Notes under the pieces: model-generated
What the model saw: only the letters and a program-made list of their open reading frames with translations
Told to the model about the DNA's origin: nothing
The model's database searches: none
Assembly (NCBI RefSeq): GCF_001681715.1
Contig: NZ_LNWY01000005.1
Location: 310,001 to 374,000 of the forward strand
Direction: 5' to 3'
Origin: Tritonibacter mobilis
GTDB lineage: Bacteria; Pseudomonadota; Alphaproteobacteria; Rhodobacterales; Rhodobacteraceae
Length of the DNA stretch: 64,000 nucleotides
In this document: one piece after another, positions 11,553-43,359 of the stretch
How the letters are laid out: each line of letters starts with the position of its first letter
How positions within the stretch are numbered: the stretch's first letter is position 1
Program-made: the position numbers and the translations under genes

Positions 11553-12400
11553 AGCGGCTTGATCGTCGTGCGCTTTTTGCCAGTGGTGCGGCTGCTGCCT
11601 TGCTGGCAGCAACGGGTGCGGGGATGGAGCAGACGCCGCGTCGTGGGGGGACGTTGCGTGTCGCGGTTCCGCGCGAGGGTGCGTTTCTGGCGCGTGTTGC
11701 GCGCGCTACCGTTTATGACCAGCTCACCGAAGTGGCTCCGGATGGGGTGCTGAGAGGGGAACTCGCGACCGGTTGGCGCAGCGATGAGACCGCGCGCCGC
11801 TGGGAGTTTCGTCTGCGTCAGGAGGTATCATTCCACGATGGGCGGTTGATGACCGGGGCAGATGTTATCGCGTCAATCGAGGCGCATCTGCTCACTGGTG
11901 AATTGCAAATTGCGGGGCTGCGCAGTCTTGATCTTTCTTCAACGGGCGATGTTGTGTTTGATCTTGCAGACGGGAGTCCGCATCTACCGTATCGATTGGC
12001 GGATACTGGCTTGGTGATCGCGCCGGACGGCGACATCTGTGCTGCTCTCGCAGATTTGAACGGGACGGGACTTTATCGGGTGGATCGTGCGCAGGACGAG
12101 CGCCATTTTCGTGCCCGTCGGGCTGACGACAATTACCGATCAGAGATTGCAGGCTGGTTAGATGCGCTGGATTTGATCGTGATCCCAGACCCCTCTGTTC
12201 GGGCAGAAGCGCTGCGCGACGGGTTTGTTGATGTGGCCGCCCTGCCAGTGACGAAGGGTTTGCAGGGACAGTTCCATTTCCACCCTTCTGATGATGATGT
12301 GGCCCTGGCTGCGGCGAAACATGTGGGTTTGCCGCCGCGCATTTCTGCCCGAGCACCGCTGGATGAGTATCGCATTGCGGAACGGTGGTGGTTGGCCTGA
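11549..12400 (+). CDS. short ABC-transporter solute-binding protein, family 5-like, Tat-type signal
   Basis: 283 aa; full family-5 peptide/nickel-binding proteins have about 500, so this looks like the first part only. The signal is KRLDRRALFASGAAAALLAATG, with a twin-arginine-like RR. Then come RRGGTLRVAVPREG, VYDQLTEVAPDGVLRGELATGW, WEFRLRQEVSFHDGRLMTGADVI and NGTGLYRV, all N-terminal-lobe features of SBP_bac_5. The frame is intact, without an obvious frameshift, and ends with ERWWLA. No permease or ATPase gene is near. It overlaps pip (ATGA). It may be a repurposed binding protein or an old truncation. Confidence 0.75.
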   Translation: MKRLDRRALFASGAAAALLAATGAGMEQTPRRGGTLRVAVPREGAFLARVARATVYDQLTEVAPDGVLRGELATGWRSDETARRWEFRLRQEVSFHDGRLMTGADVIASIEAHLLTGELQIAGLRSLDLSSTGDVVFDLADGSPHLPYRLADTGLVIAPDGDICAALADLNGTGLYRVDRAQDERHFRARRADDNYRSEIAGWLDALDLIVIPDPSVRAEALRDGFVDVAALPVTKGLQGQFHFHPSDDDVALAAAKHVGLPPRISARAPLDEYRIAERWWLA

Positions 12401-12502
12401 TTCGGGGCTGGTGTGGATGGGGCGATGCAGGTGTATGGCGTAAAATCGACCCCCGCCCCAACGCAGTGATCCGCCGGAACAATTCGGCAGGGAAGGCGCA
12501 TC

Positions 12503-12637
12503 AGGAGGAAACACTTGCCAAACGGTGCGCACGCGCGTATATCCACGCTCAACAGCGGCGCGTCGGGCTCTGGTCCTGAGGCACCTTTGATTGATTTCGA
12601 CGGGCCGCGGGCCCGTTTTTTTGTGTTTGGAGGTCTG
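12503..12637 (+). promoter_or_regulatory. rimP-nusA operon leader: strong Shine-Dalgarno, in-frame TTG start and terminator hairpin
   Basis: AGGAGG at 12503-12508 stands 6 nt before TTG at 12515. The frame opened by this TTG runs without a stop for 41 codons straight into the rimP ATG at 12638. Inside it sits a hairpin with a T run (12600-12622). So either RimP has a 41-residue N-terminal extension with no resemblance to the family, or a leader is translated through the terminator. Between the T run and the rimP ATG there is no room for a promoter, so rimP mRNA must pass this hairpin. Confidence 0.5.
12600..12622 (+). terminator. intrinsic-terminator-like hairpin in front of rimP
   Basis: ACGGGC (12600-12605) / GCCCGT (12611-12616) with loop CGCGG, followed by a run of seven T. 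It could end transcription from the pip/solute-binding-protein genes. It also sits in the path of any transcript reaching rimP, so it may act as an attenuator. Confidence 0.65.
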
Positions 12638-13249
12638 ATGACCAACGACCTGATAGCCAAAGCCGCGATTGACCGCCGCCTAGCCGAGATCATCACTCCG
12701 GTGATTGAGGATCTGGGCTATGAGCTGGTCCGTATTCGGTTGATGTCTGGCAAAGCCACGACACTGCAGATCATGGCGGATCGTCCCGATGGCGGGATCG
12801 AGGTGGATGATTGCGCTGCGATCTCTAACGCTGTGAGCGCGACGCTCGATGTCGAAGACCCGATCCTTGATGCCTACACGCTTGAGGTTTCCAGTCCTGG
12901 AATCGACCGTCCTTTGACGCGTCTCAAGGACTTCGACATGTTCGAAGGCTACGAGGCAAAACTGGAAACCGCTGATCTGATTGATGGCCGCCGTCGCTTT
13001 AAGGGTGAACTGGCAGGTATTGAGGACGACGAGGTCCTGATCAACATCGAGGAACACGGTGAGACCGTGACCATCGGTTTGAAATTCGACTGGCTGAGTG
13101 ATGCAAAGCTGGTTTTGACCGACGACCTTATCAAGGAAATGCTGCGCCAGCGTAAGGCCGCTGGTGTTCTGAACGAAGACGCCTTTGACGACATCGAGAC
13201 CGAAGGGTCCGCAGAAGGGACCGCAGGGTCCGAAGAGGAGAACAAGTAA
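12638..13249 (+). CDS. rimP: ribosome maturation factor RimP
   Basis: 203 aa from the ATG preceded by TTGGAGG. It is needed for 30S subunit maturation. Visible are the N-terminal domain with [18 protein letters not shown] and [18 protein letters not shown], the [20 protein letters not shown] motif region, and a C-terminal SH3-like domain ([23 protein letters not shown]). A C-terminal acidic tail rich in Glu/Gly follows. The stop overlaps the nusA ATG by one base (TAATG). An alternative TTG start in the same frame 123 nt upstream is discussed separately. Confidence 0.95.
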
Positions 13250-14865
13250 TGGCTATCACCTCTGCAAACCAGCTGGAGCTGTTGCAAACCGCCGAGGCCG
13301 TGGCACGTGAAAAGATGATCGACCCCAATCTGGTGGTCGAAGCGATGGAAGAATCCCTCGCCCGTGCCGCAAAGAGCCGCTACGGCAGCGAGATGGACAT
13401 TCGTGTCTCCATCGACCGCAAAACCGGCAAGGCGACCTTCACCCGTGTGCGTACCGTGGTTGAGGACGAGGAACTGGAAAACTACCAGTCCGAACTGACC
13501 GTGGCGCAAGCCAAGCAATATATGGAGAGCCCCTCCGTCGGCGATACCATCGTTGATGAGGTTCCCCCGGTTGAAATGGGCCGGATCGCAGCACAATCGG
13601 CCAAGCAGGTTATTCTGCAGAAGGTACGCGAAGCTGAGCGCGATCGTCAGTACGAAGAGTTCAAGGACCGCAACGGCACCATCATCAACGGCGTCGTCAA
13701 GCGCGAGGAATACGGCAACGTCATCGTCGATATCGGTTCCGGCGAAGGCATCCTGCGTCGCAACGAGAAAATCGGCCGCGAAAGCTATCGCCCCAACGAC
13801 CGTATCCGCTGCTTCATCAAGGATGTGCGTCGCGAACCGCGCGGCCCGCAGATCTTCCTCAGCCGCACCGCGCCGGAATTCATGGCCGAGCTATTTAAGA
13901 TGGAAGTGCCGGAAATCTATGACGGCATCATTGAGATCAAGGCCGTGGCCCGTGATCCCGGTTCGCGCGCAAAAATCGCCGTTGTGTCTTATGACAACTC
14001 GATTGACCCGGTCGGTGCCTGTGTGGGTATGCGCGGCTCTCGTGTGCAGGCGGTTGTGAACGAACTGCAGGGTGAGAAGATCGACATCATTCCGTGGAAC
14101 GAAGATCAGCCAACCTTCCTTGTGAACGCGCTGCAACCTGCAGAAGTGTCCAAGGTGGTTCTGGACGAAGAAGCGGGCAAAATCGAGGTGGTGGTACCGG
14201 ACGAGCAGCTGTCGCTCGCCATTGGCCGCCGCGGTCAGAACGTGCGTCTGGCGTCTCAGCTGACGAATCTCGATATCGACATCATGACGGAAGAGGAAGA
14301 ATCCGCACGCCGTCAGAAAGAATTCGAGGCGCGCACCGCGCTGTTTATGGAAACCCTCGACCTGGACGAGTTCTTCGCCCAACTTCTGGTCTCTGAAGGT
14401 TTCACCAACCTCGAAGAGGTTGCCTATGTGGAGCTTGACGAACTTCTGGTCATCGACGGTGTCGATGAAGGCACCGCAGAAGAGCTTCAGGCGCGGGCCC
14501 GTGACTACCTCGAAGCGCAAGCCAAGGCGGCGCTCGACAACGCGCGCAGCATGGGCGCCGAGGACAGCCTTATTGACTTTGAGGGCCTGACACCCCAGAT
14601 GGTGGAAGCACTCGCGAAGGACGATGTGAAATCGCTTGAGGACTTCGCAACTTGCGCCGACTGGGAACTGGCGGGGGGCTGGACCACTGTCAATGGCGAG
14701 CGTGTGAAGGACGAAGGTATTCTCGAACCCTTCGATATGAGCCTTGAAGAGGCGCAAAATCTAGTGATGACGGCACGCATCATGCTCGGCTGGGTGGACC
14801 CGGCAGAACTTGAATCCGATGCCGAAGATCTCGAGGAAGAAGCCGAAGGAGAAGCGGAAGCCTGA
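13249..14865 (+). CDS. nusA: transcription termination/antitermination factor NusA
   Basis: 538 aa, full length for alphaproteobacteria. NusA binds RNA polymerase and modulates pausing, termination and antitermination. Domains in order: N-terminal polymerase-binding domain (LLQTAEAVAREKMIDPNLV); S1 (GTIINGVVKREEYGNVIVD, about 140-200); KH1 (PVGACVGMRGSRVQAVVNEL); KH2 (SLAIGRRGQNVRLASQLT); then helix-hairpin-helix acidic repeats (VIDGVDEGTAEELQARA) and an acidic tail. It overlaps rimP and is followed by ylxR 28 bp later, the usual order. NusA autoregulation of this operon is known in E. coli; the leader here would allow something similar, but that is inference. Confidence 0.98.
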   Translation: MAITSANQLELLQTAEAVAREKMIDPNLVVEAMEESLARAAKSRYGSEMDIRVSIDRKTGKATFTRVRTVVEDEELENYQSELTVAQAKQYMESPSVGDTIVDEVPPVEMGRIAAQSAKQVILQKVREAERDRQYEEFKDRNGTIINGVVKREEYGNVIVDIGSGEGILRRNEKIGRESYRPNDRIRCFIKDVRREPRGPQIFLSRTAPEFMAELFKMEVPEIYDGIIEIKAVARDPGSRAKIAVVSYDNSIDPVGACVGMRGSRVQAVVNELQGEKIDIIPWNEDQPTFLVNALQPAEVSKVVLDEEAGKIEVVVPDEQLSLAIGRRGQNVRLASQLTNLDIDIMTEEEESARRQKEFEARTALFMETLDLDEFFAQLLVSEGFTNLEEVAYVELDELLVIDGVDEGTAEELQARARDYLEAQAKAALDNARSMGAEDSLIDFEGLTPQMVEALAKDDVKSLEDFATCADWELAGGWTTVNGERVKDEGILEPFDMSLEEAQNLVMTARIMLGWVDPAELESDAEDLEEEAEGEAEA

Positions 14866-14893: not shown

Positions 14894-15511
14894 ATGACCC
14901 GTGGTGGTGCAGAAAAATCCCGTGCTGACGGGCCAGAACGGAAATGTCTCGCTACCGGCGAGACACAGCCCAAGGCCGGGCTGATCCGTTTTGTGCTGGG
15001 GCCTGATAATCAGGTCTATCCCGATGTAATGGGAAAGCTGCCGGGGCGTGGAGTCTATGTCTCCGCCACCAAGGCGGCGCTGGAACAAGCGGTAAAGAAG
15101 AAAATCTTTGCACGCGGGTTCAAGTCGCAGGTGACGGTTCAGGATGGTCTGGTCGACGAAGTGGAGCGGCTAGTGCTGCGCCGGTTGGTTGACCTGATCA
15201 GCCTTGCCCGCAAGTCGGGAGATGCCGTGGGTGGTTACGAGAAGGTCAAGGATTGGTTGGACAAAGAAGAGGCCCGGGTTCTGATCCAAGCCTCAGACGG
15301 GTCCGGGCGAGGGAAGTCAAAACTGAGCACGCCGCACCGCGGCAAATACATCGGATGCATGACGGCAGACGAGCTTGGGATGGCTTTTGGGCGTGAAACT
15401 GTCATACATGCCGCGCTCGCCTCTGGTGGACTCAGCCAACGTGTTGTAGAGGAAGCCCAGCGATTGCAGGGTTTGCGCGAAAAGGGCGGCATCGGCCGCA
15501 CGGAAGGATAA
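14894..15511 (+). CDS. RNA-binding protein: YlxR (DUF448) fused to an L7Ae-like domain
   Basis: 205 aa. The N-terminal half is Ylx[21 protein letters not shown] and [19 protein letters not shown] carry the conserved Arg/Cys and GRGVY features. The second half is an L7Ae/L30e-like RNA-binding domain ([51 protein letters not shown]). This fusion is common in alphaproteobacteria between nusA and infB. YlxR-type proteins bind nucleic acid and may influence transcription or RNase P; the exact role is open. A GAGGAG ribosome-binding site precedes the ATG. infB follows after 8 bp. Confidence 0.92.
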
Positions 15512-15519
15512 AGAGCTTT

Positions 15520-18033
15520 ATGAGCGATAGTGACGGCAAAAAGACATTGGGTCTTCGTGGTAGCGGGTCTCGACCCGGCAATGTGAAACAGAGCTTTAGC
15601 CACGGTCGGACCAAGAATGTTGTGGTGGAAACCAAGCGTAAGCGCGTGGTTGTCCCCAAGCCGGGCGCAGGCAAAGGCGGCGCCGGTGGCGTTGCTGCCG
15701 GCGATGCTTCGCGGCGCCCTGCTGGTATTTCTGATGCGGAAATGGACCGCCGCCTGAAGGCACTTCAGGCAGCGAAGGCGCGCGAGGCCGACGAGGCCGC
15801 ACAGCGTGAGGCCGAAGAGAAGGCCCGCGCCGAAGAGCGTGAGCGCCGCCGTGCCGAACAAGAGGCCAAAGAGCGCGAACAGCGCGAGGCCGAAGAAAAG
15901 GCACGCCAAAAGGCCGAGGAAGAAGAGCGCAAACGTCAGGAAGAAGCAGAAGCCGCCAAAAAGCGCGCTGCTGCCGACAAAGCTGCCGCTGCTGCGCCCA
16001 AAGCGGACGCAGGCGCCGCGCCTGCTGCGCGCCCTGCACCCGGTGGCGGTGCACCGAAACCTGCGGTAGGCTCTCGCAAGGCAGAGCGCGAGCGCGAAGA
16101 GCGTGGTCGTGGTGCCAAAGGCCGTAACGACGGTGGACGCCGTTCTGGTAAACTGACCCTCAGCCAAGCAACTGGTGGGGAAGGTGGACGCCAGCGCTCC
16201 GTTGCATCCATGAAGCGCAAGCAAGAGCGCGCCCGTCAGAAAGCCATGGGTCAGGTTGAGCGCGAAAAGATCATTCGCGACGTGCAACTGCCCGAAGCCA
16301 TTGTGGTCTCCGAATTGGCAAACCGCATGGCAGAGCGTGTGGCTGACGTGGTGAAGTCGCTCATGAACATGGGCATGATGGTTACGCAGAACCAAACCAT
16401 CGATGCTGACACCGCTGAGTTGATCATCGAAGAGTTTGGCCACAAGGTCGTTCGCGTTTCCGATGCTGACGTCGAGGACGTTATTAAAGTCGTCGAAGAC
16501 AAAGAAGAAGATCTGCAATCGCGTCCTCCGGTCATCACCATCATGGGTCACGTTGACCATGGTAAGACCTCGCTTCTCGATGCAATTCGTGACGCAAAGG
16601 TTGTTGCAGGCGAAGCAGGCGGCATCACGCAGCACATCGGGGCCTATCAGGTCAAAACCGAAAGTGGCGCGGTTCTGTCGTTCCTTGATACACCTGGCCA
16701 CGCGGCCTTCACCTCCATGCGCTCCCGTGGTGCGCAGGTGACGGATATCGTGGTTCTTGTGGTCGCTGCCGATGATTCGGTCATGCCGCAAACCGTCGAG
16801 GCGATTAACCACGCCAAGGCTGCTGGTGTTCCGATGATCGTCGCGATCAACAAAGTCGACAAACCTGCTGCGGACCCGAACAAGGTGCGCGCAGAGCTGC
16901 TGCAGCACGAGGTTATCGTTGAGGCGATGTCCGGTGAGGTTCAGGACGTAGAAGTCTCTGCCCACACTGGCCAAGGCTTGGATGAGTTGCTCGAAGCGAT
17001 TGCGCTGCAGGCAGAAATTCTCGAACTGAAAGCTAACCCGAACCGTGCGGCACAGGGTGCAGTGATCGAAGCACAGCTCGACGTGGGCCGTGGTCCGGTT
17101 GCAACCGTTTTGGTTCAGACCGGTACACTTCGTCAGGGCGACATCTTCGTTGTGGGTGAGCAGTACGGTAAGGTCCGTGCGCTGATCAACGACAAGGGCG
17201 AGCGCGTTCAGGAAGCAGGACCTTCGGTTCCGGTCGAGGTTCTGGGTCTCAATGGTACGCCGGAGGCGGGTGACGTTCTGAACGTGACCGAGACCGAAGC
17301 TCAGGCGCGCGAGATTGCCGAGTACCGTGAACATGCGGCCAAGGAAAAACGCGCTGCTGCTGGTGCGGCGACCACGCTCGAACAGCTGATGCAGAAGGCC
17401 AAGGATGACGAAAGCGTCTCCGAGTTGCCGATCCTTGTGAAAGCTGACGTGCAGGGCTCCGCCGAGGCCATCGTCCAGGCGATGGAAAAAATCGGCAACG
17501 ACGAGGTTCGCGTGCGCGTTCTGCACTCCGGTGTGGGCGCCATCACCGAGACCGACATCGGCCTCGCCGAAGCGTCTGGCGCGCCGGTCATGGGCTTTAA
17601 CGTCCGTGCCAATGCGTCCGCGCGCAACACCGCCAACCAAAAAGGCGTGGAGATCCGGTATTACTCGGTGATCTATGATCTTGTGGATGACGTCAAAGCG
17701 GCTGCTTCCGGTCTGCTCTCGGCAGAGATCAAAGAGAACTTCATCGGGTATGCCGAGATCAAGGACGTCTTCAAAGTGTCCAACGTCGGCAAAGTTGCTG
17801 GCTGTCTGGTCACCGAAGGTGTGGCACGCCGCTCCGCCGGTGTCCGTTTGCTGCGCGACAACGTGGTGATCCACGAAGGCACGCTGAAAACCCTGAAGCG
17901 CTTCAAAGACGAAGTATCCGAGGTTCAGTCGGGTCAGGAATGCGGTATGGCATTCGAGAACTACGATGATATCCGTCCGAAAGATGTCATCGAGATCTTC
18001 GAGCGCGAGGAAGTTACCCGCACCCTCGACTGA
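15520..18033 (+). CDS. infB: translation initiation factor IF-2
   Basis: 837 aa. A GTPase that brings initiator tRNA to the 30S subunit. The N-terminus has an IF2-associated helix ([20 protein letters not shown]) and a long Ala/Glu/Arg-rich coiled region at about residues 80-160. The G domain starts near 342: G1 [13 protein letters not shown]2 with [11 protein letters not shown]3 [12 protein letters not shown] near 389, G4 [10 protein letters not shown] near 444. Domains II-IV follow ([49 protein letters not shown]-like end). It ends the rimP-nusA-ylxR-infB operon. Confidence 0.98.
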
Positions 18034-43037: not shown

Positions 43038-43090
43038 TCCGGCTCTTCCCTGTCGCTTGACACAGGCCGTCTCACTGACGCAAGAGAGTA

Positions 43091-43280
43091 GCGATGGTTC
43101 CCCGACGCCTAAGGCAAGTGGGATGAAAAGGGAATTCGGTGAGGAGGAGCCAAAGGGCGCCAAATCCGAAACTGCCCCCGCAACTGTAAGCGGCAAGTGC
43201 CCCGTCACACACCACTGATCCAAATGGGTCGGGAAGGGACGGACGCGCAACGCCCCGCAAGTCAGGAGACCTGCCATCGC
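43091..43280 (+). ncRNA. cobalamin (adenosylcobalamin) riboswitch
   Basis: All conserved parts are visible in order. P1 5' arm GCGATGG (43091-43097) pairs with CCATCGC (43274-43280). GGTTCCC follows, then GGGAATTCGGTG at about 43129, the core CCGAAACTGCCCCCGCAACT at about 43168 with GTAAGCGG, a P6-P11-type CCACTG...GGGAAGG segment, and the B12 box AAGTCAGGAGACCTGCC (43259-43275). It precedes a ferredoxin-like gene and BtuFCD-type importer genes, a typical target. Binding of coenzyme B12 should lower expression. Confidence 0.95.
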
Positions 43281-43359
43281 GATGTATAAACCAAGCGGGC
43301 GGTGGGCCTGCGGAGGACGCGATGCCAGATGTGATGTATCTGATGGACTGCAGTTGCCT

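Follow-up and report, generated by a model that had tools for sequence, protein, structure and literature searches.

A conserved rimP leader RNA with a probable 5′-end antiterminator upstream of the nusA operon in Tritonibacter mobilis and its relatives

The leaders of rimP-nusA-infB operons have been called the most ubiquitous transcription attenuator (PMC2965389). As defined by Naville and Gautheret in 2010, a rimP-leader consists of a GGGc...gCCC terminator with a U tract in the 5′ UTR of rimP-nusA-infB, located 4-130 nt before the gene, and its general form is reported to have no visible antiterminator (PMC2965389). Gammaproteobacterial rimP-leaders contain a tandem upstream terminator with an antiterminator (PMC2965389). 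The NusA of Bacillus subtilis is reported to limit its own synthesis by stimulating termination in its leader (Mondal 2016, cited in PMC12288461). In Escherichia coli, metY and the promoters P-1, P0 and P2 precede rimP in the metY-rimP-nusA-infB operon, and the terminators t1 and t2 lie upstream of rimP (PMC6511841). Our searches, which reached few subscription papers, found no publication on Rhodobacter rimP together with nusA and none on an alphaproteobacterial rimP leader RNA motif.

We analysed a stretch of 64,000 nt from Tritonibacter mobilis (the window) that carries this operon on its plus strand, with rimP (12638-13249; NF000932 RimP, 286.7 bits against a cut-off of 185), nusA (13249-14865; TIGR01953 NusA, 421.1 against 253.4), a gene for a YlxR-type RNA-binding protein (14894-15511; NF006622 above its cut-off, PF04296) and infB (15520-18033; TIGR00487 IF-2, 808.9 against 424.4). 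The encoded NusA has KH domains according to its Pfam match. Upstream of rimP and in the same direction are a prolyl aminopeptidase gene and a gene with a weak solute-binding-protein match that ends at 12400. Between these genes and rimP lies an intrinsic terminator of the rimP-leader type GGGC...GCCC, ACGGGCC-GCG-GGCCCGT followed by seven T (12600-12622, plus strand), and the Shine-Dalgarno sequence GGAGG of rimP was read from the sequence at 12629-12633.

The locus therefore has what defines a rimP-leader, namely a GGGc...gCCC stem with a U stretch in the 5′ UTR of rimP-nusA-infB, 15 nt before the gene, and it shares terminator type and position with the leaders of Naville and Gautheret (PMC2965389). 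Whereas no larger conserved element is reported by these authors for the general form, the window has a 72-nt leader whose 5′ strand is complementary to the terminator; the tandem upstream terminator of the gammaproteobacterial form was not seen in the window (PMC2965389). A terminator upstream of rimP is shared with E. coli, but one promoter and one short leader take the place of metY and the three promoters (PMC6511841). The B. subtilis nusA leader, likened here by description, likewise has an intrinsic operon-leader terminator at which premature termination limits NusA; dependence on NusA is reported for that leader and only inferred for ours (PMC12288461). The GGGC...GCCC terminator is thus known, and what would be new is a conserved leader with a probable 5′-end antiterminator.

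The original prediction started from an AGGAGG (12503-12508) and a TTG at 12515 that open a 41-codon frame in phase with the rimP ATG at 12638, with the seven-T terminator inside it, and proposed either that ribosomes on this frame melt the hairpin or that RimP carries 41 more residues than its counterparts in other bacteria. All of these sequence elements are present. We compared 104 upstream regions, from the genome itself, 16 loci of the same genus, 7 of the family and 80 further family loci that were taken among the matches listed, with the most divergent RimPs left out. In this comparison, the TTG forms the 5′ half of a predicted −35 box, TTGCCA (12515-12520; mostly TTGCAA or TTGCAG in relatives), which is followed after 17 nt by a −10 box, TATATC (12538-12543). 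TTGnnn with a −10-like box downstream was found in 102 of the 104 loci (L065 and L069 were ambiguous), and a 17-nt spacer, to which a small scoring bonus was given, scored best in all 104. None of the chosen −10 boxes has T at −7 (G in 57, C in 40 and A in 7; n=104); promoters with A, C or G at −7 have been described for Alphaproteobacteria, and CarD dependence has been proposed for them (PMC8407463). Because its pattern requires T at the last −10 base, an automated scan of the window sequence returned no promoter. Because the 5′ motif AACAGCGG begins 6-8 nt after the −10 box in 103 of the 104 loci, it is probably the first transcribed sequence, and we predict that the transcript starts at about 12551, 7 nt after the −10 box.

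Because the TTG lies upstream of the predicted start, it would be absent from the RNA of this promoter and could be transcribed only by read-through from further upstream. In the window, the AGGAGG-TTG and the open in-phase frame are what speaks for leader translation and, as regards the frame, for a longer RimP, but only 25 of the 104 loci have this frame open and in phase, about the chance level (approximately 21 expected if one in three of the 62 open frames is in phase). In L002, where RimP is 99% identical, the frame is closed and not in phase. In-frame start codons within the leader vary among loci, the exception being a GTG that precedes the ATG by 15 nt in the genus of the window, and the 104 loci contain no conserved translated leader frame over the terminator. 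Melting of the hairpin by ribosomes coming from the TTG is accordingly most improbable, the more so as this codon sits within a conserved −35 box. An extension of RimP by 41 residues was rejected as equally improbable: the frame is not kept in relatives, RimP_N begins at residue 59 of the long frame, the extension has no Pfam match and the alignment to the best NCBIfam RimP model begins at residue 2 of the ATG form. Other parts of the prediction held up better. The rimP/nusA/infB mRNA must read through the terminator, as had been stated, since the promoter is upstream of the terminator and the gap between terminator and gene (12-101 nt across the 104 loci) does not exceed 30 nt in 85 of them; control of the nusA operon by termination in its leader is also the best frame for this terminator. 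The comparison of the leader in relatives that the prediction had called for revealed a conserved 72-nt leader and no conserved leader peptide.

We built a covariance model, R1, from the 104 upstream regions; it spans 72 positions and matches the window at 12551-12622 (plus strand) with 74.4 bits, the single strong match in the genome (second best 17.5 bits). Promoter, 5′ motif, hairpin P1 and terminator occur in identical order in the 104 loci, the leader 5′ end, AACAGCGGC, is near-invariant, and the distance from the 5′ motif to the terminator is 49-51 nt in at least 70 of the 104. R1 matched 237 of 246 family genomes, 88 of which had contributed sequences to the model, and a RimP match was found in 242 of the 246; four of the nine genomes without an R1 match also lacked a RimP match. 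Among 80 named loci, 79 had an R1 match, and the exception, L169, has only 91 bases before its nusA match. Named loci with the NusA nearest to that of the window include Aestuariivita, Phaeobacter, Antarcticimicrobium, Tateyamaria and similar genera, and, judged from the named relatives, the family sharing this leader form is Rhodobacteraceae. A set of 292 RimP-encoding genomes from the order contained only the same family. A class-wide search of 289 genomes gave R1 matches at E <= 0.1 in 23, of which 5 belong to the family (E <= 1e-13) and the other 18, all weak, lie outside it (E 1.3e-4 to 0.1); among the loci fetched for these 18, RimP stood beside the R1 match only in L130 and L131.

The 72-nt leader folds slightly better than shuffled sequences (z −1.62, 12 of 200 as good), and the entire region 12403-12637 shows no such advantage (z −0.56). 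No riboswitch or T-box aptamer was found in the leader by Rfam searches of the window, of the leader region at E up to 10 and of 20 loci at E up to 1, of which 16 belong to the family and 4 to other families, the latter two giving nothing near a gathering score; sub-threshold matches such as SorX rest mainly on the terminator and were rejected. On its own, the motif AACAGCGGCG shows no enrichment in the genome, with 40 sites against 43 for the reversed pattern, and a 16S model, meant for a comparison with rRNA leaders, had no match in the 6 genomes searched.

The terminator was found in all 104 loci by a relaxed GGGC pattern and in 102 by a strict one. In the window, its hairpin spans 12599-12617 and its T run 12616-12622, with the first two T counted in the stem; it has a predicted energy of −13.4 kcal/mol (z −2.29, a value reached by 6 of 200 shuffles) and is the one terminator-like site in 12380-12700, where shuffles gave 0.2 +/- 0.5. 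The loop starts with CGC after GGGC in nearly all sequences and is otherwise variable, and GGCCGC is found in the terminator in 200 of 218 rows. For the loop control, we scanned the window and the 80 named loci and obtained 94 sites, which a filter divided into 70 rimP leaders and 24 others (19 distinct); the GGGCCGC sites among these 19 look like rimP leaders that escaped the filter, so that few control sites remain. A pattern search of 15 loci from other families of the class found a GGGC...GCCC terminator ahead of rimP in 4 (L223, L224, L235 and L236), and one is also present in L130 and L131; the 5′ motif was seen in none of these six.

Hairpin P1 (12560-12582, plus strand; arms GCGUCGGG and CCUGAGGC, with one G.G mismatch in the window) has two-sided changes in 8 of 8 pairs in the 104-locus alignment and again in 8 of 8 on 144 sequences, and the top three pairs in a scan of column pairs are P1 pairs. 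Taken together, P1 and the terminator have 90.5% of cells paired compared with 85.2% in shuffles (0/500), far above slid versions; on four measures none of 500 shuffles reached the observed value, and on the fifth 10 did. P1 is followed by ACCUUUGAU (12583-12591, plus strand), a degenerate form of the single-stranded CUCCACCGG of relatives; ACCG is found in 88 of the 104 leaders, and the window is an exception. For the tail, as we call the leader 5′ end ahead of P1, we counted pairing of its CGG with the CCG of CCACCG: 96.3% of cells are paired, with no two-sided change, which speaks neither for nor against this contact. The P1 loop often reads UCCAAAC or UCCACCC and is then followed by CUCCACCGG, resulting in a repeated UCCA motif that could be a protein-binding site or could pair with a UUGGA close to the ribosome-binding site of rimP.

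The proposed antiterminator strand is GCGGC at 12555-12559 (plus strand), where GCGG is kept in 204 of 218 rows, and its partner is GCCGC at 12604-12608 (plus strand), in the 5′ arm and loop of the terminator. When the RNA of the window is ended at 12608, the predicted fold pairs the two strands (z −2.71). We examined this pairing in 222 leaders from 217 genomes, five of which were entered twice (L065/L242, L024/L247, L069/L256, L095/L263 and L077/L347). With the RNA ended before the 3′ arm, the tail is predicted on the 5′ arm in 215 of the 222 leaders, compared with 428 of 1110 shuffled tails, and of 5000 shuffled 9-nt tails only 113 equalled the unshuffled one in pairing with the consensus terminator. 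Among 127 distinct combinations of tail and terminator, 9 keep four pairs only and 2 keep three only (L252 and L261, the tail of L261 being misplaced by the model). Swapping tails among the 127 weakened the mean from −12.16 to −11.77 (0/2000, z −5.4, uncorrected for relatedness); limited to the 21 variant combinations, the swap test was not significant (224/2000).

A fixed rule applied to the 217 genomes found 14 tails and 18 terminators changed and both sides changed in 5 genomes (p 0.003, uncorrected for relatedness and with 58 of the 222 leaders coming from genomes selected for their lower model scores, a choice that may in itself raise the frequency of double changes). In four of these five genomes, the pairing is re-made, as AACGGC with GCCGUU in L238, AGAGG with CCUCU in L241 and AACAG with CUGUU in L095 and L258, and L252 keeps three pairs only; the named locus L185 repeats the change of L238. 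The own arrangement of the five was matched in 2 of 120 permutations (uncorrected for relatedness), which is the lowest value attainable, since the parts compared do not differ between L095 and L258; it was 1/24 without L258 and 4/720 with L185 added. A hand count made before the fixed rule, with L260 (UUACGGC/GCCGUGA) included, gave 1/120, 2/720 and 4/5040. Tails with GCGA have a U directly after CCGC in 3 of 3 rows, compared with 38 of 197 others (p 0.008, uncorrected for relatedness), and a fourth GCGA tail, L206, agrees with this pattern. Column-wise covariation of the helix on 144 sequences was not significant, with one pair showing a two-sided change; 97.1% of its cells were paired compared with 96.7% in shuffles (10/500), and other measures gave 90 to 120 of 500. 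Near-invariance of the two strands, together with a register shift in some of the re-pairings, explains why almost no column covariation is seen. Together, these comparisons, all of them uncorrected for relatedness, give the pairing of 5′ end and terminator moderate support, and we regard it as likely. A longer antiterminator in the fold of the window, GUCG with CGAC, found no support (p 0.65, taking one per genus).

Our preferred reading, to which we give a probability of about 60%, is that the leader is a transcription attenuator of the rimP-leader kind with a 5′-end antiterminator, and that NusA is its most likely regulator. A sigma-70 promoter would start the 72-nt leader at about 12551, and the GCGGC of the tail would capture the GCCGC while RNA polymerase is making the 5′ arm of the terminator; P1, lying between the two strands, would shorten their distance and abut the tail helix. 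As long as the tail helix stands, the terminator could not fold from its loop and polymerase would read into rimP-nusA-infB. If the RNA 5′ end were occupied or the hairpin favoured, the terminator would fold and transcription would stop. Because several leaders, that of the window included, have a terminator loop of only three bases, pairing with the tail must open the top of the stem, and the two structures would be mutually exclusive. Because the tail is made first and the 5′ arm before the 3′ arm, the antiterminator would have a kinetic lead; because the terminator form is predicted at full length in 149 of 222 leaders, the tail helix must act kinetically or with help if antitermination occurs in the cell, as we infer. 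NusA, the product of the second gene, would favour the terminator and so close a negative feedback loop. It is the first candidate by analogy with the B. subtilis precedent and because it is encoded in the operon and has KH domains; RimP, cold-shock proteins or 5′-end processing are possible deciding factors.

A different use of the conserved elements would be that AACAGCGGC, CCACCGG and GGGCCGC are contact sites for NusA, RimP or another protein that promotes or blocks termination, with an incidental complementarity and no antiterminator helix. For the general rimP-leader, Naville and Gautheret inferred protein recognition from the conservation of its stem and from seeing no antiterminator (PMC2965389), and both the missing column covariation of the helix and the conservation of the P1 loop (often UCCAAAC) and of CCACCGG without a proven partner fit protein contacts. 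Paired changes in several lineages nevertheless re-make the complementarity, and few shuffled tails match the consensus terminator as well, so that we consider this explanation somewhat unlikely, although it is the strongest competitor of the antiterminator. The hairpin might also sense nothing and act simply as an insulator or partial terminator, reducing expression to a fixed extent and blocking upstream read-through. Such a role would suit a terminator that is present in every locus while the sequence upstream of the promoter differs; a passive terminator, however, needs no near-invariant 5′ end, covarying hairpin or near-invariant loop start, and the promoter lies upstream, so that the terminator acts on the transcripts of rimP itself. 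We judge an insulator to be clearly improbable.

The attenuator with a 5′-end antiterminator would provide a family-wide form, built of a 5′ strand, a hairpin and a terminator, in which control of the nusA operon can be tested by simple compensatory mutations, and R1 is an RNA model that marks this leader in nearly all of the family genomes searched. That the first nine transcript nucleotides themselves are the antiterminator, so that changes at the 5′ end set the amount of NusA and IF2 mRNA, is a more speculative and rather doubtful step; if true, the choice of start nucleotide, a 5′ cap or trimming, or a bound protein such as NusA would set this level, and the attenuator would be switched from the RNA 5′ end with no ribosome and no aptamer. 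For annotation, the −35 TTG should not be taken as a start codon.

Several leaders that R1 misses or finds in addition are of separate note. L358 and L359, both missed, have the same architecture by eye. L358 (G276) lacks the U run and has retained the 5′ motif, promoter and hairpin, with a tail, UAGCGGC, complementary to GCCGCUA; it may be a natural leader that has lost termination. The AT-rich L361 and L362 (G116 and G185), also missed, have a GGGC...GCCC-like terminator only and no 5′ motif. A laxer search gave an R1 match in G049 (E 0.0055), another of the genomes missed at first, and a second match at E <= 0.01 is present in each of G074, G146, G184, G190, G193, G200, G225 and G248. Elsewhere in the window, a cobalamin riboswitch at 43078-43292 (plus strand, 135.2 bits) is the sole Rfam match at gathering score.
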